Source: a virus. From it: 25,034 nt of DNA. Shown here in pieces: positions 698 to 24,815 of this stretch. The stretch lies in the IMG/VR virus record IMGVR_UViG_3300022927_000105, positions 1 through 25,034 of that record. The stretch is one strand, 5' to 3'. The position numbers were made by a program, and so were the translations under genes. Each line of letters begins with the position of its first letter. Position 1 is the first letter of the stretch. The notes under the pieces are model-generated. The model saw only the letters and a program-made list of their open reading frames with translations. It did not search any database and was not told where the DNA came from.

Positions 698-2404
698 ATG
701 GCTTACTTTAAAATTGACAGGTTCAGTGGTATAGCGCCGGGTGTGTCGCCTAGGCTTTTAGCGGAACAGTTTGCACAGACCGCAGTCAACGTAGATTTTG
801 AGTCCGGTAGATTAACCCCGATTACGTCTAATCTATCTGTTTTTGCGCTGCAGTCTAGTAATAGAAGCTCTATTTATTATTACAGGGATACTAACTGGTT
901 AGAATGGCCAGAAGCTAATGTAAAAGCTGTCCCCGGCCCGATACCGGGGGATACTCTAGATAGGCTGTATTGGACGGGCGAAGAGTACCCTAAAATGGGC
1001 ACCGTTACTACGATAGTTAGCGGGACGTCGGGTTACCCTGCTAATTCTTATAGGCTCGGCGTTCCAGCGCCACCAAACGCCCCCACTATCTCTAAGACCG
1101 GGGATGCAGATCCAGATCAAACGCCAGATGACGTAGCGTACGTATACACGTATGTAACTGCTTTCGGTGAAGAGGGCCCGCCTAGCCCAGCTAGTAATGT
1201 ATTAGAGAGGACAGACACAGAAACTGTTACTGTGCCTATGCCGTCTTCTGATCACCCTAGTGGCAACTATAACTTTGGGACCGGCGCGTTAAAACGTATA
1301 TACAGATCAAACACTGGATCTACTAATACTACGTTTCAGTTCGTTGCAGAAGTCCCATTCACAACTACTTCGTATCAGGACGCTTCTGCGTCTTTTGCTT
1401 TAGGCGAAGTGTTGCCAAGCGAGACGTGGATAGGTCCGCCTGACGATAACACTTCTTTGTATCCCGATGGCCCTCTGCAAGGGTTAATTATCGTTGCTAA
1501 TGGTGTGTTTGCTGGGTTTACAGGTAAACGTTTTTGCCTTAGCGAACCCTACCTGCCCCACGCTTGGCCAATATCCTACAGAATTACTCTAGAAGAAGAC
1601 ATAGTTGCTATTGGAGCGACTGGTAATGGGGTTGTCTGCCTTACTAATGGTGCCCCATATTTTGTTACGGGCACAGATCCAAGTGCAATGACGCCTATTA
1701 AGGTTGAGTTAGCTCAAGCTTGCGTAAATGTTAATAGCGTTGTAGATATGGGTAGCTACATACTGTATGCAGGGCCTGATGGGCTGTGCGCTGTCAGTGG
1801 AGTAGAAGGGAGCGTAGTCACTGAAGGCCTAGTGTCAGTTAAACAATGGAATGCTGATTTTAACCCTACTACTTACAAAGCTTTTAGGCACGAAAATACT
1901 TATGTGGCTTTTTGGGAAGATGGCGGATTTGTATACGATCCTAGAGCCGAAGCTGCAGCGCTTTCATTTATAGAGTACTCTGGCACTATTCGGGGCGGCT
2001 ATATGAACCCTAAAGATGGTGAGCTGTACGTGATTTTAGATGGCGCTGTACAAAAATTTAGAGGTGGAGCTGAAGCTAAACAGGTTACATGGAAGTCAAA
2101 ACAGTTTGTTACGCCGAGACCGCTCAGCATGAGCTGGGTGTCTGTGCACGCCCAAGATTACCCTATTGCTGTCAAAGTGTGGGCTGACGGTACTCTTGTC
2201 GCCGACTATTCTTTGTCTGAGGCTAGCGGTGTATATACACAAACAGTTACCGTGCCGTCTGGCGCGTCTACTGGTACTTTGCGTGAACCTATAATGAGGT
2301 TACCGCCTGTTATAGCGCAGGTTTGGGAAGTTGAAGTATCAGGTTCTGTTGCAATTGATGAAGTTTGCCTTGCCCAAAGCATGCAAGAGATACAAGAGTT
2401 ATGA
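698..2404 (+). CDS. Large virion structural protein, tail/neck type
   Basis: 568 residues with no signal peptide or membrane segment. Composition is rich in G, S, T, V, P and Y, typical of beta-structured phage tail components. The opening MAYFKIDRFSGIAPGVSPRL, followed by a QFAQTAVNVDFESGRL stretch, resembles a family of conserved phage structural proteins usually found between the head/neck genes and the tail fibre. About residues 120-240 look like a fibronectin-III-like insertion (PAPPNAPT...YTYVTAFGEEGPPSPAS). The start has a GAGGA ribosome-binding site and lies after a long hairpin. Its stop overlaps the fibre start as ATGA, indicating translational coupling. The precise virion role (tail tube, hub or portal-proximal adaptor) cannot be settled from sequence alone. 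Confidence 0.6.
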   Translation: MAYFKIDRFSGIAPGVSPRLLAEQFAQTAVNVDFESGRLTPITSNLSVFALQSSNRSSIYYYRDTNWLEWPEANVKAVPGPIPGDTLDRLYWTGEEYPKMGTVTTIVSGTSGYPANSYRLGVPAPPNAPTISKTGDADPDQTPDDVAYVYTYVTAFGEEGPPSPASNVLERTDTETVTVPMPSSDHPSGNYNFGTGALKRIYRSNTGSTNTTFQFVAEVPFTTTSYQDASASFALGEVLPSETWIGPPDDNTSLYPDGPLQGLIIVANGVFAGFTGKRFCLSEPYLPHAWPISYRITLEEDIVAIGATGNGVVCLTNGAPYFVTGTDPSAMTPIKVELAQACVNVNSVVDMGSYILYAGPDGLCAVSGVEGSVVTEGLVSVKQWNADFNPTTYKAFRHENTYVAFWEDGGFVYDPRAEAAALSFIEYSGTIRGGYMNPKDGELYVILDGAVQKFRGGAEAKQVTWKSKQFVTPRPLSMSWVSVHAQDYPIAVKVWADGTLVADYSLSEASGVYTQTVTVPSGASTGTLREPIMRLPPVIAQVWEVEVSGSVAIDEVCLAQSMQEIQEL

Positions 2405-5400
2405 CGACTAAGCGAACTACATACCCTACAAAAGTACCTAGCTTACCTAACTTACCTAGGGATATATCCCCGGAGCTTCGTAGGTATTTAGAGAACTTAG
2501 TAGAAGCTGTAGAAGTGCGATTAGGCCGCCGTGGGGATCAGCGTGATAGGGCAATTACGCTAAGAGAGTTAATAAATAGCGGGCTAGCGGTAGACTTAAC
2601 CGATAGACCTTTTAACCCCAACCTTTCTGGTAGTGATTTTACTCCGTCTGTAATTACTCCAGCTATAAATACCACTGTTCCACCCGCCCCTACCGGCTTT
2701 ACAGCTACTGGAGCATACTCGGTAATTCTTTTATTTTGGGACTCTCCAAACTATACAAACCACGGGCAAACAGAGGTGTGGCGTCACGATGCTGACATTA
2801 TTGGCGACGCTCAACTAGTTGGCGTATCTAGCGGCATAGCCTTTTCAGACCCAGTTGGAGAGTCTAGTTCATACTATTATTGGATACGGTTCGTAAGTGA
2901 GGACGGTATACCCGGTCCTTTTAACTCTTCGGCTGGGACTTTAGCTGAGACAGCGTTAGATGTTGAGTATCTGTTAGAGATACTTGCAGAGTCTATATCT
3001 GAGTCGGAATTAACCCAAGATTTACTTAGCAGAATAGACCTTATAGATGGGGATGCTTCGGTTGTTAATTCGGTTAGGTACTTATTAGCCCAAGAAACTG
3101 CTGCTCGGATTGCCGCTATAACGCAAGAAATTAATGACCGTACAGAAGCTATATCTGACCTTGGCGATACTATTGCAAATGAGGTGTCTGAGTTAAACTC
3201 AGCTATAGGCGATGAAATTAGTGATCGCATAGCGGCTTTAGCGCAGGAAGTTTCTGACAGGAATACTGCAATAACTACAGCCGTTTCAACTGAAGCCGCA
3301 GCTAGGGCAGCAGAAGTTGCTGCCGCTAGTCAAAATCTACAAAGCCAAATAAATGATCTAATTTCTGTAACTGAGTATGATAATGCTACTTCTTACGCTA
3401 TAGATGATCAGGTAACTTACGAAGGTGGGTTGTACCGTGCAACAGCCCCAACAACTGGTAATTTACCCACTGATACTAATTACTGGCAGTTGCTTGGTGA
3501 TTACACTAGCTTAGGCGAATTTGTAGGTGAAAATGCTGCTGCCATTGTAGAGCTAAATAATGTTTCTGCTACTTCTACATCTGCTTCTGCCTTAGCTTTA
3601 TATGGGTTGCAATCTCAAATAAACGACCCTGATACTGGGCTACCAGCTACGCGGGCTACACTGTTTGAAGAGTATTACACTGCGGTTGAAGCCGACCAAG
3701 CAATAGCATCGGCCACTACTGGTTTAGCTTCCGAAACATATGTAGACACGGAATTAGGTAACTATACTTCTACCGCAGATTTAACTGCAAACTACTACAC
3801 TAAAACTACCGCAGACGAAGCAATAGCTTCAGCAGTTTTGGGACTTGCCTCCGAAACATACGTAGATACAGAGTTAGGTAACTATACTACTACCGCAGAT
3901 TTAACTACAAACTACTACACTAAGACTACTGCAGACGAAGCAATTGCTGCCGCTGTTTTAGGGTTAGCTTCTGAAACGTACGTAGACACGGAATTAGGTA
4001 ACTATACTACTACCGCAGATTTAACTACAAACTACTACACTAAGACTACTGCAGATGAAGCAATTGCAGCTGCTGTATTGGGGCTTGCGTCTGAGACGTA
4101 TGTAGACACGGAATTAGGTAACTATACTACTACCGCAAATTTAACTACAAACTACTACACTAAAACTGGAGCCGATGAAGCAATTGCCGCTGCCGTGCTT
4201 GGGTTAGCCTCTGAAACATACGTAGACACGGAATTAGGCAGTTATACTACTACCGCAAATTTAACTACAAATTACTACACTAAAACTGGGGCTGATGAAG
4301 CAATTGCAGCTGCTGTTTTAGGGTTAGCATCTGAATCGTATGTAGATACAGAGTTAGGTAACTATACTACTACCGCAGATTTAACTACAAACTACTACAC
4401 TAAAACTGGAGCCGATGAAGCAATTGCTGCTGCCGTGCTTGGGTTAGCCTCTGAAACATACGTAGATACAGAGTTAGGTAACTATACTACTACCGCAGAT
4501 TTAACTACAAATTACTACACTAAAACTACTGCAGATGACGCAATTGCAGCTGCTGTTTTAGGGTTAGCATCTGAATCGTATGTAGATACAGAGTTAGGTA
4601 ACTATACTACTACCGCAGATTTAACTACAAACTACTACACTAAAACTGGAGCCGATGAAGCAATTGCCGCTGCCGTGCTTGGGTTAGCCTCTGAAACATA
4701 CGTAGATACAGAGTTAGGTAACTATACTACTACCGCAGATTTAACTACAAATTACTACACTAAAACTACTGCAGATGACGCAATTGCAGCTGCTGTTTTA
4801 GGGTTAGCAGCCGCTACTGAGTTTGACAACTATACTACTACGGCTGACTTACAAGAAAACTACTATACTAAAACTACTGCAGATGACGCAATTGCTGCTG
4901 CTGTTCTAGGGTTAGCTTCTGCTAGCGACTTTGACAATTACACTACTACAGCTGATTTACAGGAAACTTACTACACTAAAACTGGGGCTGATGACGCAAT
5001 TGCAGCTGCTGTTTTAGGGTTAGCTTCTGCTAGCGATTTTGATAGCTATACTACTACAGCTGATTTACAGGAAACTTACTATACTAAAACTGGGGCTGAT
5101 GACGCAATTGCGGCGGCAGTTTTAAATTTGGTTTCTACTACTGACCTTCAAGACTACACTACTACAGCCAGTCTTGAAGAGAATTACTATACTAAAACTA
5201 CTGCCGATGAAGCAATTGCTACTGCGATTTTTGGTCTGGCGTCTAGTGCAGATTTGGATAATTATGCAACTACCGCGACGCTTACTGGTAATTATTATAC
5301 TTCTGCTGATACAGACGATGCTATAACCGCCGCTACTCTTGACCTTGCTTCAACTACTGACCTTGAAGATTATGTAACTTCTGCAACGCTTACGGAATCT

Positions 5401-6024
5401 TATTACACTAAAACCGAAGCTAATAGTGCAATATCGACTGCAGTAAGTGCGCTTTCGTCCGTGGTCGGTGCCAATGCAGCGGCTGTAGAAGCAGCAGCTG
5501 AATCAATAAACGGCCTTAACGCAAAGTATACAGTTAAAATAGACAATAACGGCGCAGTAGCTGGGTATGGACTTGCGTCTGCACCCAACGATGCTGGCGA
5601 AATAGTAAGCGAGTTTATCGTTAACGCTGATCGTTTTGCTATCCTAAAAGGCGCTACTGATACTGGCGATCCTGTTATTCCGTTTACTGTTATTGCTACT
5701 GCTACTGAAATAAACGGCGTAGAAGTTCCGGCAGGTGTGTATATAAGCGACGCGTTTGTCGCTAATGGTACTATAACAAATGCCAAGATCGGTGAAGCTG
5801 CCATCGACGATGCTAAGATACTCAACATCAACGCTGAAAAAATAACCGCTGGTCTTATAGACGCTACAAGAATTGGGGCCGATTCTATAGACGCTGAAAA
5901 ACTAACTATATCATCTGACACAGATGGCACCGCTAGTTCTATTTACATGGATAGCAATGGGGCTATAAAAGTATACGACGCTAGCGGCACGCTTCGCGTC
6001 AAGTTAGGTAATCTAGGCGCTTAA
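2401..6024 (+). CDS. Repeat-containing gpJ-like tail fibre / host-specificity protein
   Basis: The start is ATG at 2401, overlapping the upstream stop as ATGA, giving 1207 residues; an in-frame ATG at 2365 lies inside the upstream gene and is less likely. Domain order: a charged N-terminus with a DQRDRAITLRELI-like segment; a fibronectin-III-like domain (about 95-185); heptad-like helical stretches (about 225-320); and a small carbohydrate-binding-module-like unit (about 325-365, motif YAIDDQVTYEGGLYRA). A long shaft of 36-40-residue repeats with core YYTKTTADEAIAAAVLGL follows (about 413-1013). A C-terminal domain resembling the DUF1983 tail of lambda gpJ (GLASAPN...SEFIVNADRFAIL) ends the protein. 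It should form a trimeric fibre contacting the host surface. The stop is one base before the next start. Confidence 0.85.
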   Translation: MTTKRTTYPTKVPSLPNLPRDISPELRRYLENLVEAVEVRLGRRGDQRDRAITLRELINSGLAVDLTDRPFNPNLSGSDFTPSVITPAINTTVPPAPTGFTATGAYSVILLFWDSPNYTNHGQTEVWRHDADIIGDAQLVGVSSGIAFSDPVGESSSYYYWIRFVSEDGIPGPFNSSAGTLAETALDVEYLLEILAESISESELTQDLLSRIDLIDGDASVVNSVRYLLAQETAARIAAITQEINDRTEAISDLGDTIANEVSELNSAIGDEISDRIAALAQEVSDRNTAITTAVSTEAAARAAEVAAASQNLQSQINDLISVTEYDNATSYAIDDQVTYEGGLYRATAPTTGNLPTDTNYWQLLGDYTSLGEFVGENAAAIVELNNVSATSTSASALALYGLQSQINDPDTGLPATRATLFEEYYTAVEADQAIASATTGLASETYVDTELGNYTSTADLTANYYTKTTADEAIASAVLGLASETYVDTELGNYTTTADLTTNYYTKTTADEAIAAAVLGLASETYVDTELGNYTTTADLTTNYYTKTTADEAIAAAVLGLASETYVDTELGNYTTTANLTTNYYTKTGADEAIAAAVLGLASETYVDTELGSYTTTANLTTNYYTKTGADEAIAAAVLGLASESYVDTELGNYTTTADLTTNYYTKTGADEAIAAAVLGLASETYVDTELGNYTTTADLTTNYYTKTTADDAIAAAVLGLASESYVDTELGNYTTTADLTTNYYTKTGADEAIAAAVLGLASETYVDTELGNYTTTADLTTNYYTKTTADDAIAAAVLGLAAATEFDNYTTTADLQENYYTKTTADDAIAAAVLGLASASDFDNYTTTADLQETYYTKTGADDAIAAAVLGLASASDFDSYTTTADLQETYYTKTGADDAIAAAVLNLVSTTDLQDYTTTASLEENYYTKTTADEAIATAIFGLASSADLDNYATTATLTGNYYTSADTDDAITAATLDLASTTDLEDYVTSATLTESYYTKTEANSAISTAVSALSSVVGANAAAVEAAAESINGLNAKYTVKIDNNGAVAGYGLASAPNDAGEIVSEFIVNADRFAILKGATDTGDPVIPFTVIATATEINGVEVPAGVYISDAFVANGTITNAKIGEAAIDDAKILNINAEKITAGLIDATRIGADSIDAEKLTISSDTDGTASSIYMDSNGAIKVYDASGTLRVKLGNLGA
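3727..4806 (+). repeat. Nine tandem 120-bp repeats inside the tail fibre gene
   Basis: Copies begin at 3727, 3847, 3967, 4087, 4207, 4327, 4447, 4567 and 4687, each encoding a 40-residue unit that opens with SETYVDTELG or SESYVDTELG. The period is exactly 120 bp, so the frame is kept. Copies differ mostly at third codon positions except where recently duplicated (4321-4560 against 4561-4800). Confidence 0.95.
4807..5454 (+). repeat. Six degenerate 108-bp repeats continuing the fibre shaft
   Basis: After the ninth 120-bp unit the period falls to 108 bp (36 residues), starting at about 4807, 4915, 5023, 5131, 5239 and 5347. The VDTELG segment is replaced by a shorter TEFDNY, SDFDNY or TDLQDY segment. 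Units grow more divergent toward the C-terminus, ending with a TESYYTKTEANSAI copy. Confidence 0.85.
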
Positions 6025-8016: not shown

Positions 8017-8268
8017 TTAAAGCTTATTTTGGCAAAATGGGCAGGTTAGATCGCTATACAATTCTGGATCTATTTTAGAGGGCGGTATGTCGAGGTACTT
8101 AGCTAATTTTATGATAGCGGACGGGTTTAGCTCTGTTGTCCCACTCAGGTACTGACTAAACGCGCTTTGTGTCCACCCAATTTTAGCCGCTGCTTCTGTC
8201 TGTGTGACTTTATCGCGTTGCTTTTTTAGTTTCCACTCACGTTGCAAGTTCTCTAGTCTAGTTTCCAC
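8017..8268 (-). CDS. XRE-family helix-turn-helix regulator with C-terminal CxxC
   Basis: I choose the GTG at 8268, six bases after a GGGAG ribosome-binding site; the in-frame TTG at 8274 directly abuts that site and is unlikely. The 83-residue product has a Cro/CI-type helix-turn-helix (VTQTEAAAKIGWTQSAFSQY, then LSGTTELNPSAIIKLAKYL, about residues 20-60). A short tail with a CPFC motif follows, possibly half of a zinc knuckle. It should bind operator DNA, probably as a dimer. It overlaps the end of the nuclease gene and is the last gene of the leftward unit, so it would be made only if transcription crosses the whole module. A CI/Cro-like switch or a late regulator are both possible. Confidence 0.8.
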   Translation of the reverse strand: METRLENLQREWKLKKQRDKVTQTEAAAKIGWTQSAFSQYLSGTTELNPSAIIKLAKYLDIPPSKIDPELYSDLTCPFCQNKL

Positions 8269-8653
8269 AGACAACTCCCGTTATCCAGTCGGCTACTTCT
8301 TTTCTAGACACGGCACGCTTTTGGTAATCAGATTTTAAAAGGTAGTTGTTCCATTCTTTTTGCTCGAGGACAATGGCAGATTCTTCGCAGCCGATTATTA
8401 CTGCAGCGCGTTGGTTGTAAGTTGCTAGTCGATCTAACCAGAGTGCTTGTTGCACGGATAGCGATGTCCTTATAGCAGTTGTATCTTTGCTTGGCAGTTT
8501 CTTTACGTACTTGTATTCGACAAATAGAATACTAGCGGGGCCAGCATAAAATGCATCTGGTACCCCGCCAGCAAACGTGTCGTGTATCTTCCAGACGAAT
8601 ACGTCAGAAGGAAGATGACGATGCACGGATTTTACAAACCCGTGCTCGTTCAT
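8258..8653 (-). CDS. VRR-NUC-type PD-(D/E)XK endonuclease
   Basis: 131 residues. The catalytic pattern is visible: GGVPD (residues 29-33) supplies the Asp, and FVEYK (44-48) the E-x-K pair. SVQQALWLDRL (66-76) matches the conserved Q-x-x-W-L helix of VRR-NUC nucleases. Phage members are thought to process branched or replicating DNA, sometimes with an SNF2 helicase, and an SNF2 helicase gene lies about 1 kb upstream in the same transcription direction. The ribosome-binding site is weak, suggesting dependence on upstream translation. The stop overlaps the XRE gene start. The catalytic residues look intact, so activity is plausible. Confidence 0.8.
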   Translation of the reverse strand: MNEHGFVKSVHRHLPSDVFVWKIHDTFAGGVPDAFYAGPASILFVEYKYVKKLPSKDTTAIRTSLSVQQALWLDRLATYNQRAAVIIGCEESAIVLEQKEWNNYLLKSDYQKRAVSRKEVADWITGVVCGN

Positions 8654-12381: not shown

Positions 12382-13131
12382 TTAGTTGACGCCCCACGAA
12401 CATTCGGGGTAGTCGCCTTTTCCATAAGAACACCATCGGCAAGAGTCTTTACTTGGCGTTGGTGAAAAGTCTTCGCAAGTAGTCATTGCAATTGCACGTC
12501 TGTGAAAGCCCGGAGCGAACTGCATCGCTTGTTCTCTTGTGAAGGATTTCTTAGTTGTCTCGCCTTTATCTAGATACCATAGCTCGGTCTGCACAAAGTC
12601 TATGTGTGGGTATCTAAAGAAAGTAGCAATTGCATATAACAAGCACTGCTGCGAGTGGCCTATTTCATTGCCAAACTTTTTACCTGTCTTGTAGTCAATT
12701 ACACGTGCACTTTGTTCGTCTTCATGCACGAGAGCATCTAGCTTGATACGTGCCCATGTGGATTTTTCCATCCAACCACAAGGGTTCCATTCAAGGTCAA
12801 AGCCCCATTCACCTTCTAGTTCTACTTTAGCTTCAGCGAATAAATCTCGTAGCTGCTCAAAGTCATTTTTAAATTTGCTTAGCGAAGCTGGTAGTTCACC
12901 TAGCTCACCTTTAACGTAGTCTTCTGCTTCTTGGTGTATCTGTGTGCCGCGATCTGCTGCTGGACTTGACGGTTCTTGAATCTTTTTTACTTTTTGAATG
13001 TAAGACCTGTAAGGGCATTCTTCAAAAACTTTAAGCGCTGAGTAAGACCAAGCCTTTAGTTCACCGAGCTGCTCTGGTTTTTCTAAAGGCTTGGTTATGT
13101 CTGGTCTCTTATCCTGAGTTAGCTTAACCAC
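12382..13131 (-). CDS. Cas4/RecB-like PD-(D/E)XK nuclease with four-cysteine iron-sulfur pattern
   Basis: 249 residues starting at GTG 13131 after AGGA. Motifs in order: SYSALKVFEECPYRSY (29-44), RGTQIHQEAE (61-70, supplying His66), RIKLDALV (128-135, Asp132), VIDYKTGKK (144-152, Asp146 and Lys148), and QQCLLYA (161-167). Cysteines at 39, 231, 234 and 244 match the one-plus-three arrangement that holds a 4Fe-4S cluster in Cas4, AddB and related nucleases. The expected activity is exonuclease or end-processing in replication or recombination. It follows the primase-helicase gene after a 60-base gap with an AU-rich hairpin and is closed by a strong terminator, so it ends the core replication cassette. 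No other CRISPR gene is nearby; Cas4-like here means the fold. Confidence 0.85.
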   Translation of the reverse strand: MVKLTQDKRPDITKPLEKPEQLGELKAWSYSALKVFEECPYRSYIQKVKKIQEPSSPAADRGTQIHQEAEDYVKGELGELPASLSKFKNDFEQLRDLFAEAKVELEGEWGFDLEWNPCGWMEKSTWARIKLDALVHEDEQSARVIDYKTGKKFGNEIGHSQQCLLYAIATFFRYPHIDFVQTELWYLDKGETTKKSFTREQAMQFAPGFHRRAIAMTTCEDFSPTPSKDSCRWCSYGKGDYPECSWGVN

Positions 13132-13148: not shown

Positions 13149-13178
13149 TTGTTTTTATTAGTGTAACTAATAAAACAA
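13149..13178. promoter_or_regulatory. Long AU-rich intercistronic hairpin
   Basis: The arms at 13149-13162 and 13166-13178 form 13 base pairs with one bulged T and a three-base loop. It fills the gap between the primase-helicase stop and the nuclease start. There is no T-tract outside the stem in the - direction, so it is more likely an RNA processing or stability element than a terminator. Confidence 0.55.
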
Positions 13179-13191
13179 TGCTTTGCTAGTT

Positions 13192-15708
13192 TTATGCGCT
13201 TTTTAGAAGGCGATGGTCTTCTGGTTTAAAGTAAGTTGCTATTAAGTAGTCGTACTCTTCTTGAGTTAAAGTCCAATTTACTACAAGCCCGCTTATATGA
13301 TTAGCATCTCTACTAGCACCATAAGGGCGTTTTCGTTCTGATGCTAATCCGTTTCTGTTCATGCGCTTAGAAAACTCACGCTGTGAAAACCTTGGGTTTT
13401 GCTCAGTCTGTACGTGATAAACGGTTCGCAAATGTTCCATAGGTACGACCATGTATTCGTCATCTACTTGGGCAATCCAAGTTTTTACAATGCGCTGTGC
13501 GATTTCTATTTCGTTGCTGTGCAGTATGCTTGCTACGTTTATGTCTAGTATGTCTGTAAACGAAGATAGCTTGCCGTGCTTTAATGCTTGGCAAAACTCG
13601 TCAAAGACAGACATAGACACATTGCGCATTTGTTCTTTGGCGGTGTTATCTATCGGCGTCTCTACCAATCGTTTATCGTACTTGAACGTTTGTAATATCC
13701 CAGCTAACGACCATAGCTCTTCTTCAAGCTCGTTAGTATCTAGTCGTTCTGGTATATCTGGGTATGCTTCGATTAATTTTTTATCTTGCTTAGGAGCAAT
13801 GTTGTATCGACGGTCTCCATTCTCAATGTTTACTGCGTCTACTCTGTTGGTAAGAAATATAAAGTTTGTGTAGTTATCAATTTCTATTTGGTTACTGCGC
13901 ATGCCTCTGATTGTAATTGTAGGTTCAGTAATCTGGTTCTTTAGCTTATCAGCCATCTTTCCTGCACCGCTAGACGATGATGCCATGTGGAACTCGTCTA
14001 CTACTAAGAACAACGCGTCTCGCATGTACAAGTTGAACTGCTCTTCCATGCTTTGCAAGTAACGCATAGGCGCATGGTGAGTACCGAATAGGCCACGAAG
14101 TATGCGTGAGTAAAACACGCCTTTACCTGTGCCTTGTGTACCTGACAGAACCCACGATACGCCAGTCTTTTTACGTGTCTGGAATATGTACGCAAGCCAA
14201 TTAATGAAGCGTTCAAACTCTTCTTGCCCATCACCTAGCATGTGTTTCATTATGGTGTAAGACAGCGGGCAGATACGCGATATAGTCTTTGCTGTGCCAA
14301 ACTCTAAAGGCTTAGCGGGCGTTTTCGGGTTTAAAGCGTACGTTGTTTTTCTATATGTGTTTATCTCGTATGGCGTTTTTGCAAGGTTAATAGCAGGCTC
14401 GTTAGACGTTGGCATAAACTTTACCTTAGCTTCAGGTATAAAGTCTGGGGCTAACTTACCGTGCGATATAAAGAAGTCTTCTATGTTCTGCTTACCTATT
14501 GGGGTAAGCGGGTAGTCGTCAGAAAACTGATTGTGGTTTGGGTTGAACATGCCAGCGTAAAACGTATCTGAGTCGAAATCGCGCATAACAATTGGGAACT
14601 CAGCTTTACCTATTTTTTCTAGCTCATCTGCAAACGTATCGAATATAGATGTGTAGAAGTCTTTGTCTGCTTTTTCTATCTCAAAGATCGGCTCGTCTTT
14701 GAAGTTGTACATATACGTTGGGCGTTCGATGTTAAAGTAGTAAGCGCCGCTATCGCCACCATTTATGTTGCAACGTATGTATGGAAAGCTGCTTGTGTCT
14801 GCAATAGATATGGACATCTTGTCTGGGTTAACCAGAACTTCTTCTGTCATATTGTCTATAGACGTTAGTCGAGTCTTAGTCGGTTTCTTTTTGAATCCGG
14901 CTTGTTCTCGCAGTTTGTCTTTGATTGCTTGGCTTTTTTCATAGCACTTCTGTGGGCTTATGTTGCCCATAAGAGGTGCTAGATCAAACGATGCGTTTTC
15001 TCTTTCTACTAATACAACGCGGTCTTCATCTGTAGCAAAAGGGTTTTGCCTTTGGGCTTCAAACGAAGGCGGTGATATAAATATAATTTTTGAGTTATCT
15101 GCAACAGAAGAGTCTAGCGGATACTTTAACGACTGTCCGTTTACTGACAGCTGTAGTTGTTCAGAGAATACATCTGATTCGTAGTTAACATCTTGCAGCC
15201 ACAACTTTATTGCTTTTGGTGGCATCGCAACAGTCATCAGCATGAATATGTGCATTGATGTTTTGTTGCCTTTGAGCCCTAAGCTTGAAGACGCTTGTGC
15301 AATGAAGCTTGTGCTGTGCAGCTCTTGTGGGAGCTCTGCGATTATTTGGTTAGCTAAGTAAACTACGTCTATAGAAGTTAGCTTTGATTTGGTAGCAAGT
15401 TGCTTTGATAGCTCTACGCCATCTATGTCTAATACAAGCAGGTTAGACGTTGCGTTGCGGTCAGTTAGTCCCGCTCTGCTTTCGTTAATAATGTCTCGTT
15501 TTAGGTTACCTTTAAGTAAGCAGTGTCCGTTTTCTCCATGCTTTCTTAGCAATTTTTCTAATTGCTCTAGACCATTTTTTGAAACGGGTAGCTCGTATTT
15601 GTGAGATGTTACTGCTTTAACATGTGGATATGGTGTAAAGCCGTTTTTAGCTGAATATTGTTTTGTAAGTTTGAGGCCGTTTGTAGCCTCCAAAAAAGTC
15701 ACCCTCAT
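13192..15708 (-). CDS. Prim-pol/SF3-like primase-helicase
   Basis: The start is ATG 15708, seven bases after AGGAGG; the ATG at 15732 lies upstream of that site. This gives 838 residues. The N-terminal part has archaeo-eukaryotic primase-type motifs: LLVLDIDG (90-97, D-x-D at 94/96) and KTSMHIFML (149-157, the S-x-H motif), then a linker. The C-terminal half is a D5/SF3-like helicase with Walker A GTQGTGKG (523-530), Walker B FLVVDEF (567-573), sensor FIFLTNR (616-622) and DRRYNI (632-637). It should synthesise primers and unwind the fork. It follows csrA by 32 bases, and its ribosome-binding site lies in the loop of a hairpin, a likely CsrA target. Confidence 0.88.
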   Translation of the reverse strand: MRVTFLEATNGLKLTKQYSAKNGFTPYPHVKAVTSHKYELPVSKNGLEQLEKLLRKHGENGHCLLKGNLKRDIINESRAGLTDRNATSNLLVLDIDGVELSKQLATKSKLTSIDVVYLANQIIAELPQELHSTSFIAQASSSLGLKGNKTSMHIFMLMTVAMPPKAIKLWLQDVNYESDVFSEQLQLSVNGQSLKYPLDSSVADNSKIIFISPPSFEAQRQNPFATDEDRVVLVERENASFDLAPLMGNISPQKCYEKSQAIKDKLREQAGFKKKPTKTRLTSIDNMTEEVLVNPDKMSISIADTSSFPYIRCNINGGDSGAYYFNIERPTYMYNFKDEPIFEIEKADKDFYTSIFDTFADELEKIGKAEFPIVMRDFDSDTFYAGMFNPNHNQFSDDYPLTPIGKQNIEDFFISHGKLAPDFIPEAKVKFMPTSNEPAINLAKTPYEINTYRKTTYALNPKTPAKPLEFGTAKTISRICPLSYTIMKHMLGDGQEEFERFINWLAYIFQTRKKTGVSWVLSGTQGTGKGVFYSRILRGLFGTHHAPMRYLQSMEEQFNLYMRDALFLVVDEFHMASSSSGAGKMADKLKNQITEPTITIRGMRSNQIEIDNYTNFIFLTNRVDAVNIENGDRRYNIAPKQDKKLIEAYPDIPERLDTNELEEELWSLAGILQTFKYDKRLVETPIDNTAKEQMRNVSMSVFDEFCQALKHGKLSSFTDILDINVASILHSNEIEIAQRIVKTWIAQVDDEYMVVPMEHLRTVYHVQTEQNPRFSQREFSKRMNRNGLASERKRPYGASRDANHISGLVVNWTLTQEEYDYLIATYFKPEDHRLLKSA

Positions 15709-15711
15709 AGG

Positions 15712-15727
15712 CTCTCCTCCTAGAGAA
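15712..15727 (-). promoter_or_regulatory. RBS hairpin with UAGGAG loop before the primase-helicase gene (CsrA-type site)
   Basis: On the - strand, TTCTC (15727-15723) pairs with GAGAG (15716-15712) using four Watson-Crick pairs and one G-U. The exposed loop is TAGGAG (15722-15717). The Shine-Dalgarno AGGAGG (15721-15716) lies in the loop and closing pair, and the ATG is at 15708. GGA at loop positions 3-5 is the placement preferred by CsrA/RsmE proteins, and csrA is the gene directly upstream. Confidence 0.6.
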
Positions 15728-15740
15728 TACATTAGTTTTG

Positions 15741-15923
15741 CTAATGCGTATTGTCGATATTGAAGATCTCTTCGCGGTCTATATTTATCTCTTTGTCTGC
15801 AGTAAAAGTTAAACGAACTTGATTACGATCTATTTTTGTTATTTTTAAAGACGCAATGACCTTATTATCTCTATGCAAGACGACTGTTTCGTTCAGTTTT
15901 CTTGTAAGTACTAGTCGCGTCAT
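15741..15923 (-). CDS. csrA: CsrA/RsmA-family post-transcriptional regulator
   Basis: 60 residues, the normal length for the family. It opens MTRLVLTRKLNETVVL and ends with INIDREEIF, matching CsrA's LTRR..GE and HREEI. Residues equivalent to E. coli Leu4, Arg6 and Arg44 are Leu6, Arg8 and Arg50, so the RNA-binding face appears intact; the usual Gly9 is Asn11. NQVRL (34-38) matches the conserved central strand. CsrA dimers bind GGA in hairpin loops, often over a ribosome-binding site, and block translation. The ATG shares its A with the polymerase stop (TAATG) and has no strong ribosome-binding site of its own, so it is coupled to polymerase translation. The primase gene follows after 32 bases. 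Confidence 0.92.
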   Translation of the reverse strand: MTRLVLTRKLNETVVLHRDNKVIASLKITKIDRNQVRLTFTADKEINIDREEIFNIDNTH

Positions 15924-17746
15924 TACTTGCTGTATCGAATGTCAAATCCGCCTTCTGCATCCAAAGGAATGTCTGAGCACCAGTCAGGCGCTTGACACAT
16001 GTCGTCGATGATCTTCTGCATTGTAGCATGAGGATTGGTATCTGGGGCAACAATAATAATCTCGTCGTGCACCGTTAACGCAACCTTCCCACCTTCTACA
16101 GACTTAGATAGCCGTAACATACTGTCTGTAATGACAATTCTTGAGAGTGCCTGTACAACGTTCTCGGTTATTTTTCCTCCGTATGTGTATTCATCTTTGT
16201 TACGTGACTTAAAAGTGAGTCCTTTAACAGTTCTTCTTAGACCGTGGTATCGTAATGCCATACCATTTGGCAGTATCAGTGATTCGTGGTCAACGGTCAG
16301 TGGTCCGTACCTATGTCCGTAGTTGTCTTTGTGTAGAGACATTATTAGTAAGTCTTCGAGCTTAGTCCATAACGATTTTATTTTGGAGTAAGTGTTGCGG
16401 TACTTACGTACGATGCTTTGTGATTCGTCTATGTCGAACTCCATAGCTGGGCCCATAGCCCCAGACTTAAGTGTAGCTCGGAACTTTTCGTGGCCCATGC
16501 CATAGCCAAGACCTAAGATAGCAGTCTTACCTACAAAGCGTTCTGTTGGGTCGTCTTTTTTGTTTATCGGCCTGTCATAGATAACTGATGCAAAGTTGCT
16601 ATAAATGTCGTCGCCGTTGCGAAACTGTTGTACAAGTTCGTCTTCACCCGCAAGCCATGCAAGCATGCGCGCTTCGATGTTTGACAAGTCAGCGACATAA
16701 AGTAGATGCCCTTCCGGTGCCATAAGACATTGGCGCAGCTCACCGCCTCGCGGCAAGTTCTGCATGTTAAGCTTATCTGTACCGCCAAAGCGGCCAGTAT
16801 GTGCAGCGTAATAACGCAGCGGAGCTGGTATAAAGTCGTTATCATCTGCTGCATCGAGGAACCGTTTAGACCTCGTCTCTGTTAGCCTAGACTTAACCGC
16901 GATTCTAGCGTCCCATAGGTGTTGGTGTTCTGGATACATAGCAGCTAACTGTTTGAAGCCAGCGTCATTCTTACCAAGAGCAGGTATGCTGTTGTTTGGA
17001 TTAGATGGACTTGGTTTGGTTGGAACTACTATGCCTAGGCTCTCTACAATTTCGACAAACTGCGGATTACTTGCCAGCTGTTTACGGTCGTAACCAGATG
17101 CAGCTATTAGTTGCTCTGCGTTATTGAACTCTTGTTCGTGGTACGAGGTCAATCGTTCACGGTCAATCTTAAGTGACGGTTCACAGAACATGCGTACTGT
17201 GAGATCGATTAGGTCCATTTCAGACTGTGGGTATGCTGTTTCTAAGAACGCATTGTAGATGGCATAGGTTAGATCTACGTCTTGAATACAGTAGCCAGCG
17301 ATCTGCTCTTCTATATCGGGAGGCAAATCATATATACCTTTGGCGTTAATCAGTTCGTCGCCTTTACGCATTGACGGGTCGTTGGGAAATAACCGTTCTG
17401 CTACGTCCTTTAACCGTGCTGACTGTCCGGGGTTAGCGCCCCGTGCCATTGACGCTGTGTCGCAGTAGTAGGCTGGTTTGAGCCCGTAGTATTGCGTGAG
17501 TATATAACCGTCGAAAGGAGTGTTGTGGCACACTAGACGTGCGTTTGGCCAGTCAATCTGATGCAACGCGTCTTCTGTTTCGTCTTCGCCGAACCATTCG
17601 GTGTCGTTGTCGTTTACTTTTATGCCGACGCCCCACACTTTGAACTTGTCGTGCTTGACATAGTCCATTGTGGTCATCTTTGTAAGGCTTAGTTTTGTGT
17701 CGTAGTAGGTCTCAAAGTCAAGTGTCACTACATCCAGTTTCGGCAC
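15923..17746 (-). CDS. polA: Family A DNA polymerase with 3'-5' exonuclease
   Basis: 607 residues from GTG 17746, seven bases after GGAG. The N-terminal DEDD exonuclease is intact: DFE (10-12), NTPFD (75-79) and YCIQD (152-156). Polymerase motifs: A, VADLSNIEAR (351-360; Asp353, Glu358); B, ERFVGKTAILGLGYG (402-416; Arg403, Lys407, Tyr415); C, TVHDE (558-562). The residue equivalent to E. coli Phe762 is Leu411, a variant linked in environmental phages to temperate or slow replication. There is no 5'-3' exonuclease domain, as usual for phage enzymes. It overlaps the 78-residue gene upstream by 29 bases and csrA downstream by one base. It should be the replicative polymerase of the phage. Confidence 0.95.
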   Translation of the reverse strand: MPKLDVVTLDFETYYDTKLSLTKMTTMDYVKHDKFKVWGVGIKVNDNDTEWFGEDETEDALHQIDWPNARLVCHNTPFDGYILTQYYGLKPAYYCDTASMARGANPGQSARLKDVAERLFPNDPSMRKGDELINAKGIYDLPPDIEEQIAGYCIQDVDLTYAIYNAFLETAYPQSEMDLIDLTVRMFCEPSLKIDRERLTSYHEQEFNNAEQLIAASGYDRKQLASNPQFVEIVESLGIVVPTKPSPSNPNNSIPALGKNDAGFKQLAAMYPEHQHLWDARIAVKSRLTETRSKRFLDAADDNDFIPAPLRYYAAHTGRFGGTDKLNMQNLPRGGELRQCLMAPEGHLLYVADLSNIEARMLAWLAGEDELVQQFRNGDDIYSNFASVIYDRPINKKDDPTERFVGKTAILGLGYGMGHEKFRATLKSGAMGPAMEFDIDESQSIVRKYRNTYSKIKSLWTKLEDLLIMSLHKDNYGHRYGPLTVDHESLILPNGMALRYHGLRRTVKGLTFKSRNKDEYTYGGKITENVVQALSRIVITDSMLRLSKSVEGGKVALTVHDEIIIVAPDTNPHATMQKIIDDMCQAPDWCSDIPLDAEGGFDIRYSK

Positions 17747-17954
17747 GTTCTCTCTCCATGTGTTCTTTTATGCGAGTTTCATTCCTAGTCATGAATTCTC
17801 TGAAATGGTTTTCAAAAGCCGATTCATGTATCTCGCACTGTTTAATTGTATTACCTGCTTTTAAAAAAGCGTTGATCTGCTCTTCTAATTCCTTTCGCAG
17901 TAATTGTTTAGAAGTCAATGTCGTTGATGTGAGATTGGCATTCTCTGTGGGCAT
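17718..17954 (-). CDS. Small hypothetical protein, 78 residues
   Basis: The ATG at 17954 has AAGGA about ten bases upstream and overlaps the preceding ORF by 47 bases; its end overlaps the polymerase start by 29 bases. The protein is mostly helical and charged (SKQLLRKELEEQINAFLKAG, then ENHFREFMTRNETRIKEHME). The NAFLKAGNTIKQC segment resembles a short motif (FL-x-x-G-G-x-I) seen in other small phage proteins of unknown role. Overlaps on both sides are compatible with a translational chain leading into the polymerase gene. No function can be assigned. Confidence 0.55.
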   Translation of the reverse strand: MPTENANLTSTTLTSKQLLRKELEEQINAFLKAGNTIKQCEIHESAFENHFREFMTRNETRIKEHMERERAETGCSDT

Positions 17955-18120
17955 AGATCTGCGATTCCTTATCTTGAAAACTTGATTCTAGCTCTTTGTA
18001 TGTTTCTGGTAATCTTGACTTAAGCCAGACTGTCACGAAGTGTGTCAGTTCAATCTGTGATGAGAAAGAGTTTTGTTTGTCGAACTCTTCTGATAACTTT
18101 AGGTACTCCTTTACGTCCAT
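17908..18120 (-). CDS. Small hypothetical protein, 70 residues, with a structured RBS
   Basis: ATG 18120 is preceded by AGGAGG with a four-base spacer, and both sit in a 6-bp hairpin with a UAGGAG loop. The product is helical and charged (MDVKEYLKLSEEFDKQNSF, then IELTHFVTVWLKSRLPETYK). It begins eight bases after the stop of the 61-residue gene and overlaps the 78-residue gene. I recognise no family. Because its start codon is partly inside the hairpin stem, translation is probably controlled; the phage CsrA is the obvious candidate regulator. Confidence 0.6.
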   Translation of the reverse strand: MDVKEYLKLSEEFDKQNSFSSQIELTHFVTVWLKSRLPETYKELESSFQDKESQIYAHRECQSHINDIDF

Positions 18121-18137
18121 ATATCCTCCTAGATATA
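18120..18137 (-). promoter_or_regulatory. RBS hairpin with UAGGAG loop before the 18120 gene (CsrA-type site)
   Basis: On the - strand, TATATC (18137-18132) pairs perfectly with GATATA (18125-18120) around the loop TAGGAG (18131-18126). The A of the ATG start codon is the last base of the stem, and AGGAGG spans the loop and closing pair. The loop is identical to that of the primase hairpin at 15712-15727, while the stem sequence is different. Confidence 0.6.
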
Positions 18138-18314
18138 GATACAGCTTTTAAATACTTCCAGTAATTGAAAGGATTTGTACATCGGTTCCATCCGTTCTTC
18201 TTCGGTTAGAAGATAGTACACGTCGCCATCTGAAAGCAAGTAATGTGTTTCATAGTAGCTCTTTGATAAGAAGTCGCCTTCTTCTAACGCAGCTTCGAGG
18301 TCAGTAAATATCAT
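18129..18314 (-). CDS. Small acidic protein, 61 residues
   Basis: ATG 18314 has GGGAG six bases upstream and overlaps the stop of the diphosphohydrolase-like gene by 14 bases. The protein is acidic and aromatic-rich (MIFTDLEAALEEGDFLSKSY, then YLLSDGDVYYLLTEEERMEP). Predicted structure is a helix followed by a beta hairpin and a helix. Small acidic early proteins of phages sometimes act as inhibitors or DNA mimics, but nothing in the sequence is specific. The function is unknown. Confidence 0.6.
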   Translation of the reverse strand: MIFTDLEAALEEGDFLSKSYYETHYLLSDGDVYYLLTEEERMEPMYKSFQLLEVFKSCIYI

Positions 18315-18657
18315 TTAAGCTCCCTTTTGTTTCTGAGTCGAGCCTGTCGTCTATTAAGGTGCCATGCTTTTCAGCGTCCATTACCAGTAGGCAACATGCT
18401 ATGACATGTGCCAATGGATGTTGTCCGCTGTCTTTGTCAGTGTCAATGCCCTCTGCCCATTCAAGCAGCGCGTGTCTGGTTATTGCTCCTACGTATGTAC
18501 TGGCTAGGATTTTATCTTTGCGCCAGTTCTTACGTCCGTACTTGTCTGCGCCTGTTTTCATTACGCGTGCTACATCTGCTAACGGTCCGTATGGCACGTA
18601 CTCCATCGGCGGTTTGTTTTCTTTTAGCTGCTGAATGTGTTTTGGGTTGTGCTTCAT
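18301..18657 (-). CDS. dATP/dGTP diphosphohydrolase-like protein (DUF5664/MazZ-related)
   Basis: The start is ATG 18657, which overlaps the previous stop as ATGA and has AAAGG upstream; the ATG at 18690 lies within the upstream gene. The 118-residue protein has VARVMKTGADKYGRKNW (29-45) and ITRHALLEWAEGIDTDKDSG (59-78) followed by HPLAH (80-84). These are the signature segments of the dATP/dGTP diphosphohydrolase N-terminal family, all-alpha NTP pyrophosphatases related to MazG. The likely role is to hydrolyse dATP or dGTP to the monophosphate and shape nucleotide pools for replication. Related MazZ enzymes serve the 2-aminoadenine (Z) genome pathway, but no purZ-like gene is in the window. 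Confidence 0.8.
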   Translation of the reverse strand: MKHNPKHIQQLKENKPPMEYVPYGPLADVARVMKTGADKYGRKNWRKDKILASTYVGAITRHALLEWAEGIDTDKDSGQHPLAHVIACCLLVMDAEKHGTLIDDRLDSETKGSLNDIY

Positions 18658-18938
18658 TTTCGTAACCTTTTGTGAATCTCCATAGAGCATAAAGACCCAA
18701 GGCTTCCACCAAGCCAGAGCGGTATCGCTAACAAAGCAAACGAGACTATGTCACCGGAGTTTATCGTTTCTATTGCTTTGAAAGTAATGGTGCCGTAGAC
18801 GCCGCATTCAAATATGGCCATTACACCGCTTGTCCAGAACAGCCAAACGCGTTTGTGGTGCATAACGTTTAGCTGCTGGAAGGCTTTGGTAGCGACGTAA
18901 CAGCTTTGTGCAACGAACAAGATTAAATAGCTGGCCAT
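18654..18938 (-). CDS. Small polytopic membrane protein, 94 residues
   Basis: ATG 18938 has AAGGA six bases upstream. The sequence has hydrophobic stretches at about residues 1-18 (MASYLILFVAQSCYVATKAF region), 30-52 (VWLFWTSGVMAIFECGVYG) and 62-83 (VSFALLAIPLWLGGSLGSL), separated by short polar loops. It ends in a basic HKRLRK tail, so three membrane helices with a cytoplasmic C-terminus are likely. The stop overlaps the next start (ATGA). The family is not recognised. A membrane protein inside an early/replication operon could be a superinfection-exclusion or host-modifying protein, but this is a guess. Confidence 0.65.
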   Translation of the reverse strand: MASYLILFVAQSCYVATKAFQQLNVMHHKRVWLFWTSGVMAIFECGVYGTITFKAIETINSGDIVSFALLAIPLWLGGSLGSLCSMEIHKRLRK

Positions 18939-20434: not shown

Positions 20435-21124
20435 TTAGGCACCGAGTAATTTAGCAGTCAGTACTACGTGGTTGACATCGTCTGGGTTGAAGTCAATCTC
20501 TTCTTTGACTGCTTGAGCACGTTGCTTGCGTGTAACCTTCTCATGCAACTTGGATACATATTCTGATGGCACAAGATTTTCTGCAGCAGGCCACACTTCT
20601 AGCAGCTGCTTGAGCGTGTTGCATCGGTTGAGTAAGTCGCGCACTTTGTAGCGGTACTGGTGTTCTGCTTCTTTATTCTCGTTACGTCGGTTAAACAGAT
20701 CTGTTGCGTACTCTTGTAACTGTGTTCTGTCTTCTTGTGCATAGTCTTCTATATACGACAGGAATGACATGTAATAAGAGTTAGTGTCGTTGCGTAGCAC
20801 ATTGATCGGTGCGCTCGGTTCGAATCTTATTGATTTGTCACGGGAGAACGCATCATCTGACCACTCTATAGATATTGTGTCTATTGTTTTGTTTATGATT
20901 TTAGCTGATACGCAGCCGAATGATTTAGCGCCATCTAGCTCATCTTCGTATATCTTTTTCATTTTACGTAAGCCGATTTGAGACGGCATACGTGGGATAG
21001 CTTGTGTTAGTAACGTGGTAAACTCAGCTGATGGCATTGGTTCAGGGTTAGCTACTCCAAATGCATACATTGCTTTTTGGTGAATCTTCTCACGTAGTTG
21101 CCCGGTTAATCGTACTGAAGCCAT
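20435..21124 (-). CDS. Nmad5-like protein (nucleotide modification associated domain 5)
   Basis: 229 residues with AGGAGG seven to eight bases before ATG 21124. The C-terminal segment LLNRCNTLKQLLEVWPAAEN followed by LVPSE is the hallmark of the Nmad5 family, a phage domain proposed from genomic context to be linked to modified nucleotides. The N-terminal RLTGQLREKIHQKAMYAF also fits, as does a mid coiled-coil region (YAQEDRTQLQEYATDLFNRR). No catalytic motif is evident. It lies between a MoxR ATPase and a VWA metallopeptidase, so it may instead be the third component or client of that machine. Family assignment is by motif; function is unproven. Confidence 0.72.
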   Translation of the reverse strand: MASVRLTGQLREKIHQKAMYAFGVANPEPMPSAEFTTLLTQAIPRMPSQIGLRKMKKIYEDELDGAKSFGCVSAKIINKTIDTISIEWSDDAFSRDKSIRFEPSAPINVLRNDTNSYYMSFLSYIEDYAQEDRTQLQEYATDLFNRRNENKEAEHQYRYKVRDLLNRCNTLKQLLEVWPAAENLVPSEYVSKLHEKVTRKQRAQAVKEEIDFNPDDVNHVVLTAKLLGA

Positions 21125-23796: not shown

Positions 23797-24435
23797 TCAT
23801 GCTGCTTTTGCGCTGAAGTCTAGCCCCTGCGCTTCTGCTACGATTTTTCCATCTGCTTCGTTGTTGAGACGTTCTACAATCTCTTGCATTGCTGTGAATG
23901 CGTCGTCGAAGGACGTGCACTGAGTGGTTGTGACCCACTGGCCGTCTATGTTCTCTGACTGTGAGAAGTAGAACAGAGGTTGAATGTCATTGAGATAGGA
24001 CATCTGACCGCCCAGCCATGTGTGTAGGTTGTTAAGGGTCATGAAGTCGTCGTCAACGATCTCTGTCATGTGTGAGTTCTCAATGCTCACGCCCACCTGC
24101 TCTGATACATCCTGCGAGAAGTCGATGCCATTGGCAAAGTCTTCTGCTGAGTTGGCGATGAATAACCTACGTGCGTTCCAACATACTTGATTCATAACTG
24201 CTTGTACGAAGGTCAGTATGTACTCTGGATTGGCGAGCAACTGTGGTGAGGTGCCTGCTGTCTCCTGCTCACGTTTAGCGTCCTTGCGTTCCTTCTGAAG
24301 CTGAAGATACGTAAGTGCTATTTGGTTGGCAGTTTGCCCGTGAACCTGTCTGAGAACCTCTGCGGCGATGAGACCGTTAAGGTTATTTTTCTCTGACATC
24401 TGTGCTACTGCGTCTGCGATGAATGAATTAGTCAT
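23797..24435 (-). CDS. Hypothetical phage protein, 212 residues, last gene of the rightmost operon
   Basis: ATG 24435 follows GGAGAG. The protein is soluble and mixed alpha/beta: a helical start (SFIADAVAQMSEKNNLNGLI), a charged coiled-coil stretch (LQLQKERKDAKREQET), a central helix-rich region with CWNARRLFIANSAEDFANG, an acidic patch (MTEIVDDDFMTLNNLHTWLG), and QWVTTTQCTSFDDAFTAMQE near the end. No domain is recognised. It overlaps the upstream 50-residue ORF by eight bases, and a strong terminator follows immediately, so this short operon is likely expressed as a unit. Its position nearest the LexA-like and palindromic leader suggests an early or immediate-early gene. Confidence 0.75.
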   Translation of the reverse strand: MTNSFIADAVAQMSEKNNLNGLIAAEVLRQVHGQTANQIALTYLQLQKERKDAKREQETAGTSPQLLANPEYILTFVQAVMNQVCWNARRLFIANSAEDFANGIDFSQDVSEQVGVSIENSHMTEIVDDDFMTLNNLHTWLGGQMSYLNDIQPLFYFSQSENIDGQWVTTTQCTSFDDAFTAMQEIVERLNNEADGKIVAEAQGLDFSAKAA

Positions 24436-24747: not shown

Positions 24748-24815
24748 AGCATAGCTCCTGCAGCAATCATTAGTAGTGCTAAGATAGTTAACTGTAGTCG
24801 TTGTACTTTGGTCAT
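24744..24815 (-). CDS. 23-residue hydrophobic microprotein, first ORF of the operon
   Basis: ATG 24815 is preceded by GGAGAG (spacer about six), and the TGA overlaps the next ATG. The peptide has a basic start (MTKVQR) and a hydrophobic remainder (LTILALLMIAAGAML), resembling a single membrane helix or leader peptide. The operon-first position could also mean that it serves mainly to load ribosomes for the next gene. Confidence 0.5.
   Translation of the reverse strand: MTKVQRLQLTILALLMIAAGAML

Follow-up and report, generated by a model that had tools for sequence, protein, structure and literature searches.

We analyzed a 25,034-base phage contig, virus record IMGVR_UViG_3300022927_000105 of IMG/VR (the whole of this stretch is called the window below), in which a gene for a CsrA-type protein lies directly behind the gene for a family A DNA polymerase. 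Two RNA hairpins, one before the primase-helicase gene and one before a gene for a 70-amino acid protein, hold the Shine-Dalgarno (SD) sequence in their loops. In the group of csrA-bearing phages to which the contig belongs, which is mostly marine, csrA keeps its position and its RNA-binding arginine, and compensated hairpins are found at specific genes. From these sequence comparisons, we consider it likely (probability about 0.8) that phage CsrA, made together with the polymerase, represses selected phage genes, including the primase-helicase, through SD hairpins. We also lean, with less assurance, toward the broader reading that in a widespread phage group CsrA produced in stoichiometry with the polymerase holds down the primase-helicase along with other early genes, its targets having been repeatedly rewired.

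A csrA gene is kept behind the DNA polymerase gene

The csrA product matched Pfam PF02599 with 42.4 bits (6.9e-11), as compared to a curated cut-off of 27, and a profile search of the PDB returned solely CsrA/RsmE. Its AlphaFold2 model (pLDDT 79) adopts the CsrA fold; the best 14 PDB structure matches were all CsrA/RsmA/RsmE (E 0.008 and weaker, probability 1.00, TM ~0.6-0.7), and RsmE bound to an SD sequence (2jpp) was among the best of them. Arg50, which corresponds to the RNA-binding Arg44 of Escherichia coli, was invariant in 13 aligned sequences, as were positions L4, L6, and R8 of the N-terminal LxLTR motif.

For comparison, we collected ~300 loci of IMG/VR relatives by polymerase, primase, and CsrA searches, some of them overlapping within one contig. 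Members of the close group, with polymerases above ~50% identity, share the gene order polymerase-csrA-primase, and csrA follows the polymerase in every locus that is not cut off there. In the window, the csrA start codon shares 1 base with the polymerase stop codon (TAATG). Across relatives, the distance between the two is at most 8 nucleotides in 102 of 109 distinct junctions, and mostly they overlap or touch. Thus, csrA translation is probably coupled to that of the polymerase. The gene has no obvious SD of its own in the window, and the listed csrA starts of relatives likewise lack a clear one.

Distant polymerase relatives (~40% identity) carry no csrA, except for the small clade of L301 and its relatives. 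In L301, a bacterial-type csrA (3604-3789) stands directly behind the family A polymerase of an otherwise csrA-less group, and the same is true of L303-L308, which possibly represents an independent arrival at the same position. Among isolated phages, the nearest full-length polymerase and primase matches were KPP25-like Pseudomonas phages and Aeromonas phage phiA008, and Rhizobium phages were also among the nearest polymerase matches (all ~29-36% identity). KPP25 gave no csrA match, and the KPP25-like phages were uninformative as controls because they offer too few sites. We also looked for a host through genome contigs. The three close matches (19-61 kb) were scattered over unrelated metagenome bins assigned to Planctomycetaceae, Neomarinimicrobiota, and Rhodospirillaceae, and so no host is claimed.

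Two SD hairpins flank csrA in the window

A preliminary description of the window, made from its sequence alone, had placed two SD hairpins on either side of csrA, and inspection of the minus strand confirmed both of them as well as the intervening gene (Table 1). The first, whose outermost pair is U-G, precedes the ATG at 15708. This is the likely true start of the primase-helicase, rather than the upstream ATG at 15732, as judged from the N terminus conserved in relatives. In the second, the A of the ATG at 18120 falls within the 3' arm. The terminal U and G of the shared UAGGAG loop can form a wobble pair, leaving an AGGA tetraloop that the energy model favors.

Among 31 minus-strand gene starts, these were the only two with a hairpin presenting the GGA of the SD at a folding free energy (ΔG) ≤-2. 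Folding of the minus-strand starts also bore out the statement that the AGGAGG sites at 20294, 21124, and 22799 form no such hairpin; the start at 22138 has a weak one (GUCA-AGGAG-UGAC, -1.3 kcal/mol). When the flanks were shuffled, each of the two hairpins had a chance of ~1% (0.013 and 0.011), which for the window alone is suggestive only.

SD-loop hairpins are in excess in csrA-bearing phages

We therefore examined the starts of all non-overlapping open reading frames (ORFs) having an SD, with identical start-site sequences counted once. A hairpin was scored when the GGA of the SD lay in a loop of 4-6 nucleotides closed by 4 or more consecutive base pairs. In the control shuffles, the flanks were permuted, while the SD and start codon were retained; relatedness was treated apart from these counts, by thinning of identity clusters. 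The 1728 distinct sites of csrA-bearing contigs yielded 150 SD-loop hairpins versus 38.3 ± 6.1 in shuffles at ΔG ≤-2, and 67 versus 12.3 ± 3.6 at ΔG ≤-4. The excess rises with SD strength, with 57 hairpins versus 4.8 ± 1.9 for SDs of at least 6 nucleotides. In contrast, the 396 sites of 43 csrA-less polymerase relatives remained at chance level (14 versus 10.8 at ΔG ≤-2 and 2 versus 3.6 at ΔG ≤-4; for SDs of at least 6 nucleotides, 0 versus 1.3 at ΔG ≤-3).

The excess is specific to loops that hold the SD. When the loop lacked the GGA of the SD, hairpins in these windows were not enriched and were even slightly rarer than in shuffles (117 versus 135.6), which ruled out hairpins near start codons in general as the cause. 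At start sites, AGGAG loops numbered 104 versus 18.4 (ΔG ≤-2) and 50 versus 5.7 (ΔG ≤-4); away from starts there was little excess at the first threshold (47 versus 38.0) and some at the second (33 versus 12.7). The AGGAG pentaloop, the commonest class in relatives, made up 30% of native hairpins as compared to 4% in shuffles. Ribosome-binding sites elsewhere mostly lack equally good hairpins: in the majority of the other large gene families, there were none, few, or approximately the number expected by chance.

The clade of L301 and L303-L308 also has SD hairpins near csrA, such as CAUUC-UUAGGA-GAAUG, at 7 of 36 sites versus 1.2 expected, and these are absent from csrA-less homologues.

Stem sequences change while pairing persists

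The preliminary description had further noted that the two stems of the window differ in sequence while both pair. Across relatives, we found the same behavior at replication-region genes, linked to the presence of csrA. In an arm-exchange test, in which the 3' arms were swapped among family members in 200 trials, the family of the 70-amino acid gene retained a hairpin at 3.6 ± 1.6 sites (maximum 7), while 23 of its 43 distinct ribosome-binding sites form one natively. For the primase, 24 of 86 distinct sites carry the hairpin versus 7.2 ± 2.1 after exchange (maximum 14). Thinning to a single representative per cluster left 11 of 16 versus 0.45 expected in the 70-amino acid family (55% identity) and 10 of 42 versus 1.22 in the primase (75% identity). 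Counted as covariation among members selected for having the hairpin, 30 cells changed on both sides versus 6.6 ± 2.2 in shuffles, with 100% paired; for the hexaloop class found in the window, the count was 5 versus 1.3 among hand-picked hairpin members. Because of this selection, only the arm-exchange test is free of selection bias.

The diversity of the stems is considerable. Around a constant loop, the 70-amino acid family uses CATC/GATG, CACC/GGTG, CAGC/GCTG, ACGTC/GACGT, GTCAT/ATGAC, ACTTC/GAAGT, AACTAC/GTAGTT, TAGTAC/GTACTA, CCGC/GCGG, and CTCG/CGAG, in addition to TATATC/GATATA of the window. Primase stems include AGGCTC/GAGCTT, TTCTC/GAGA(A/G), GCTC/GAGC around UGUAGGAG, and AGATTC/GGATCT, among others. 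A clade comprising L098, L101, L102, L110, and L115-L117 has AGGAG loops closed by C-G at several genes, on the stems GGTAC/GTACC, CGATAC/GTATCG, and GACAC/GTGTC, and in another clade CACAC/GTGTG hairpins precede different genes. Thus, hairpin targets appear to shift between lineages. In the family of the gene at 23797-24435 (212 amino acids), 8 of 19 distinct relatives have hairpins versus 1.7 after arm exchange. The stems in these relatives are GGUAC/GUACC, UAGUAC/GUACUA, UGUAC/GUACA, and CAUCC/GGAUG; the copy in the window has no such strong SD hairpin.

These results bear on whether the hairpins arise by chance or from general sequence pressure at strong SD sites. Such an origin could be argued from the window, where each site has p ~0.01 and 36 start sites were examined. 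It is opposed by the group-wide excess over flank shuffles, by the lack of excess in csrA-less relatives, and by the arm-exchange, per-cluster, and non-SD control tests on the 70-amino acid family and the primase. On these grounds, we rejected it as highly improbable.

A putative CsrA circuit and its fit to known target rules

In the circuit that we propose, the phage would make CsrA together with its DNA polymerase, via the probable translational coupling. CsrA would bind the loop GGA of hairpins holding the SD of selected phage genes, and the bound protein would block ribosome entry and so repress translation. The targets in the window would be the primase-helicase directly downstream and the 70-amino acid gene upstream of the polymerase, so that replication proteins would be limited as polymerase and CsrA build up. 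Here, we infer CsrA as the ligand, repression as the effect, and the timing in infection.

Both window hairpins have the GGA in a loop that overlaps the SD, as in CsrA/RsmE targets. The preliminary description had gone further and taken the loop for the hexaloop preferred by these proteins, a detail that did not hold: the highest-affinity hexaloop of RsmE is ANGGAX (PMC4005645), and UAGGAG has no leading A. Sites in relatives are mostly of the AGGAX pentaloop type, the lower-affinity class for RsmE, which binds those of RsmZ SL3 and SL4 in the low micromolar range (PMC4005645). Thus, what stands of the originally suggested phage CsrA regulon is a covarying structure, tied to csrA, at replication-region genes, and not an optimal hexaloop.

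The hairpins could be regulatory and yet be read by another phage RNA-binding protein or by host CsrA, or act through temperature or ribosome competition without any protein. T4 RegA, gp32, and gp43 act as repressors at ribosome-binding sites, gp43 having an RNA operator (PMC3014915); host CsrA would recognize the same motif, and the stems have little stability (about -2 to -7 kcal/mol), as a structural switch might. We nevertheless consider such readers unlikely, as the loop is kept as A-GGA-X, with AGGAG ~7-fold over shuffles, only in the csrA-bearing group, where csrA is fixed beside the polymerase. Moreover, a thermosensor would have no need of a conserved loop, and its SD is normally concealed in the stem.

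Several observations weigh against CsrA control through these hairpins. The UAGGAG loop of the window is neither the ANGGAX hexaloop nor exactly an AGGAX pentaloop. Many CsrA targets have a second GGA close by. Upstream of the genes with hairpins, GGA showed no enrichment (0.58 versus 0.85); downstream it was slightly more frequent (0.81 versus 0.66), and these counts give no support for a double-GGA arrangement. No CsrB/RsmZ-like sponge RNA was matched in the window, L098, L117, or L102 by Rfam, which covers known families only. The primase site has a competing hairpin, in which CUCUAGG pairs with CCUAUGAG (-6.3 kcal/mol in a window of -30 to +6); it arises in short windows, and the leader folded over -60 to +15 gives the hairpin at 15712-15727. 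Given this competing fold and the ~1% chance per site, the case depends on the relatives, which decide, by their sequences, for the hairpin at 15712-15727. A dyad element next to this hairpin (see below) raises a further point: if it marks a promoter, the resulting transcript might begin within the hairpin and escape control.

The relatives themselves also provide counterevidence. Many csrA-bearing relatives lack one or the other hairpin, the primase hairpin being missing, for example, from the L024-L055 clade. Some of these bear comparable hairpins at other genes, and thus the regulon looks rewired rather than absent. The contrast between csrA-bearing and csrA-less phages is mostly a single phylogenetic split, and the hairpin sites of L301 and L303-L308 look inherited by common descent, which makes them suggestive only as a second case. 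Finally, Vibrio phage D65 carries csrA and yet has SD hairpins at 0 of 19 sites; the pattern therefore belongs to this phage group and not to csrA phages generally.

Relation to known systems

The proposed control resembles CsrA/RsmA/RsmE repression, such as that by RsmE on the hcnA leader, in the protein family, the RNA-binding arginine, and a loop GGA overlapping the SD. RsmZ SL3 and SL4, like the phage sites, have A-GGA-X pentaloops, often closed by C-G (PMC4005645). It differs in being phage-encoded and apparently coupled to the polymerase, in the conservation of target hairpins within the phage's own gene set, and in its variable stems; Rfam revealed no sponge RNA, and nothing pointed to a second site upstream. 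In function, T4 RegA comes closest: this small translational repressor is encoded within the replication gene cluster, immediately behind a replisome gene, and represses several phage genes (PMC3014915). RegA is an unrelated protein, however, and acts at unstructured, A+U-rich sites that cover the AUG, in contrast to SD hairpins with GGA loops. In the autoregulation of T4/RB69 gp43, a hairpin and the ribosome-binding site likewise control synthesis of a replication protein (PMC3014915), while here the regulator would be a separate, coupled protein and the loop contains the SD.

CsrA homologues on mobile elements have been described before. In the available parts of the respective papers, csrA is recorded on 30 phages (PMC7366521), many phage csrA genes are listed with a suggested action on host CRISPR-Cas (PMC8450108), and work on plasmid RsmQ concerns host targets, with more predicted sites noted for rsm-bearing Pseudomonas plasmids (PMC9928087). 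Those parts deal with host targets or gene presence and not with covarying hairpins of phage replication genes. Our search, which left subscription journals and preprints mostly outside, yielded no paper in which SD hairpins of the CsrA type covary at phage replication genes. Thus, CsrA-type repression and phage csrA are already known, while a covariation-supported CsrA regulon in a phage's own genome was not found described.

It is possible, although we doubt it, that phage CsrA mainly reprograms the host, for example through CRISPR-Cas repression or a shift in metabolism, and that control of phage genes is secondary; this reading is compatible with the proposed circuit. Host reprogramming has been proposed for phage RsmA/CsrA homologues (PMC8450108), and plasmid RsmQ affects hundreds of host proteins (PMC9928087). 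The conserved position of csrA inside the replication operon and its apparent coupling to the polymerase argue otherwise, and the covarying sites in the phage's own genes favor self-regulation.

The role of phage csrA has so far been unknown or assumed to be host-directed; here, the phage genomes themselves indicate targets, and the compensatory changes give the target prediction specificity and make it inexpensive to test. Should CsrA control prove true, a bacterial regulator would have been built into a RegA-like circuit that controls phage replication at the level of translation, and the rewired target sites would offer a natural series in which to measure CsrA recognition of loop and stem.

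A putative operator dyad and other features of the window

The dyad located between csrA and the primase-helicase gene looks, from its sequence, like a feature separate from the adjacent hairpin and a member of a phage operator/promoter family. Its consensus is T-ATTAG-Y-NNN-R-CTAAT-A. In csrA-bearing loci it occurs in ~185 distinct contexts at a spacing of exactly 5, as compared to 0-10 for other spacings and 0-7 for control dyads. The window has a second copy at 13157-13171 and a degenerate one at ~24769-24783. The dyad mostly stands 20-35 nucleotides before a recognized downstream start (84 on the early strand and 9 on the other). Upstream there is a TTGA-like element, and the right arm is overlapped by TAATAT, a pattern that resembles an operator over sigma70-like promoters. 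In whole records, copies number up to 15 in some lineages (6-15 in five records of ~56-61 kb); they are fewer in some other records and absent from those of L096, L098, L033, and L049. The helix-turn-helix protein at 8017-8274 is a candidate reader of the dyad.

Table 1. Coordinates of the csrA locus, its proposed target sites, and neighboring features in the window.
Feature	Position	Strand	Remarks
PD-(D/E)XK nuclease	12382-13131	minus	Part of early and replication region
Primase-helicase (DUF5906 / phrog DNA primase)	13192-15708	minus	Profile matches; proposed CsrA target
RNA hairpin UUCUC-UAGGAG-GAGAG, primase-helicase SD in loop	15712-15727	minus	-4.0 kcal/mol, shuffle p 0.013; proposed CsrA site
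Dyad ATTAG-N5-CTAAT	15731-15745		Includes csrA stop codon; putative operator/promoter
csrA, 60 amino acids	15741-15923	minus	Pfam PF02599
Family A DNA polymerase	15923-17746	minus	Pfam DNA_pol_A 1e-28; directly upstream of csrA
78-amino acid protein, SutA RNA-polymerase-binding domain	17718-17954	minus	Pfam 9e-8; just before polymerase gene
70-amino acid gene	17908-18120	minus	Family in many relatives upstream of polymerase; proposed CsrA target
RNA hairpin UAUAUC-UAGGAG-GAUAUA, 70-amino acid gene SD in loop	18120-18137	minus	-3.7 kcal/mol, shuffle p 0.011; proposed CsrA site
dATP/dGTP diphosphohydrolase-like gene	18301-18690	minus	Part of early and replication region

The early and replication region occupies the minus strand, with small genes between the diphosphohydrolase-like gene and the 70-amino acid gene; the latter has no match in Pfam or PHROG. 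The SutA-domain protein may serve the phage in modulating the RNA polymerase of its host. The minus-strand product of 20435-21124 contains an Nmad5 nucleotide-modification-associated domain (9.6e-9), which hints at modified phage DNA or its handling. On the plus strand, a long, tail-fibre-like ORF (2365-6024) encodes many near-identical repeats of ~38 residues (ASETYVDTELGNYTTTADLTTNYYTKTTADEAIAAAVLGL).

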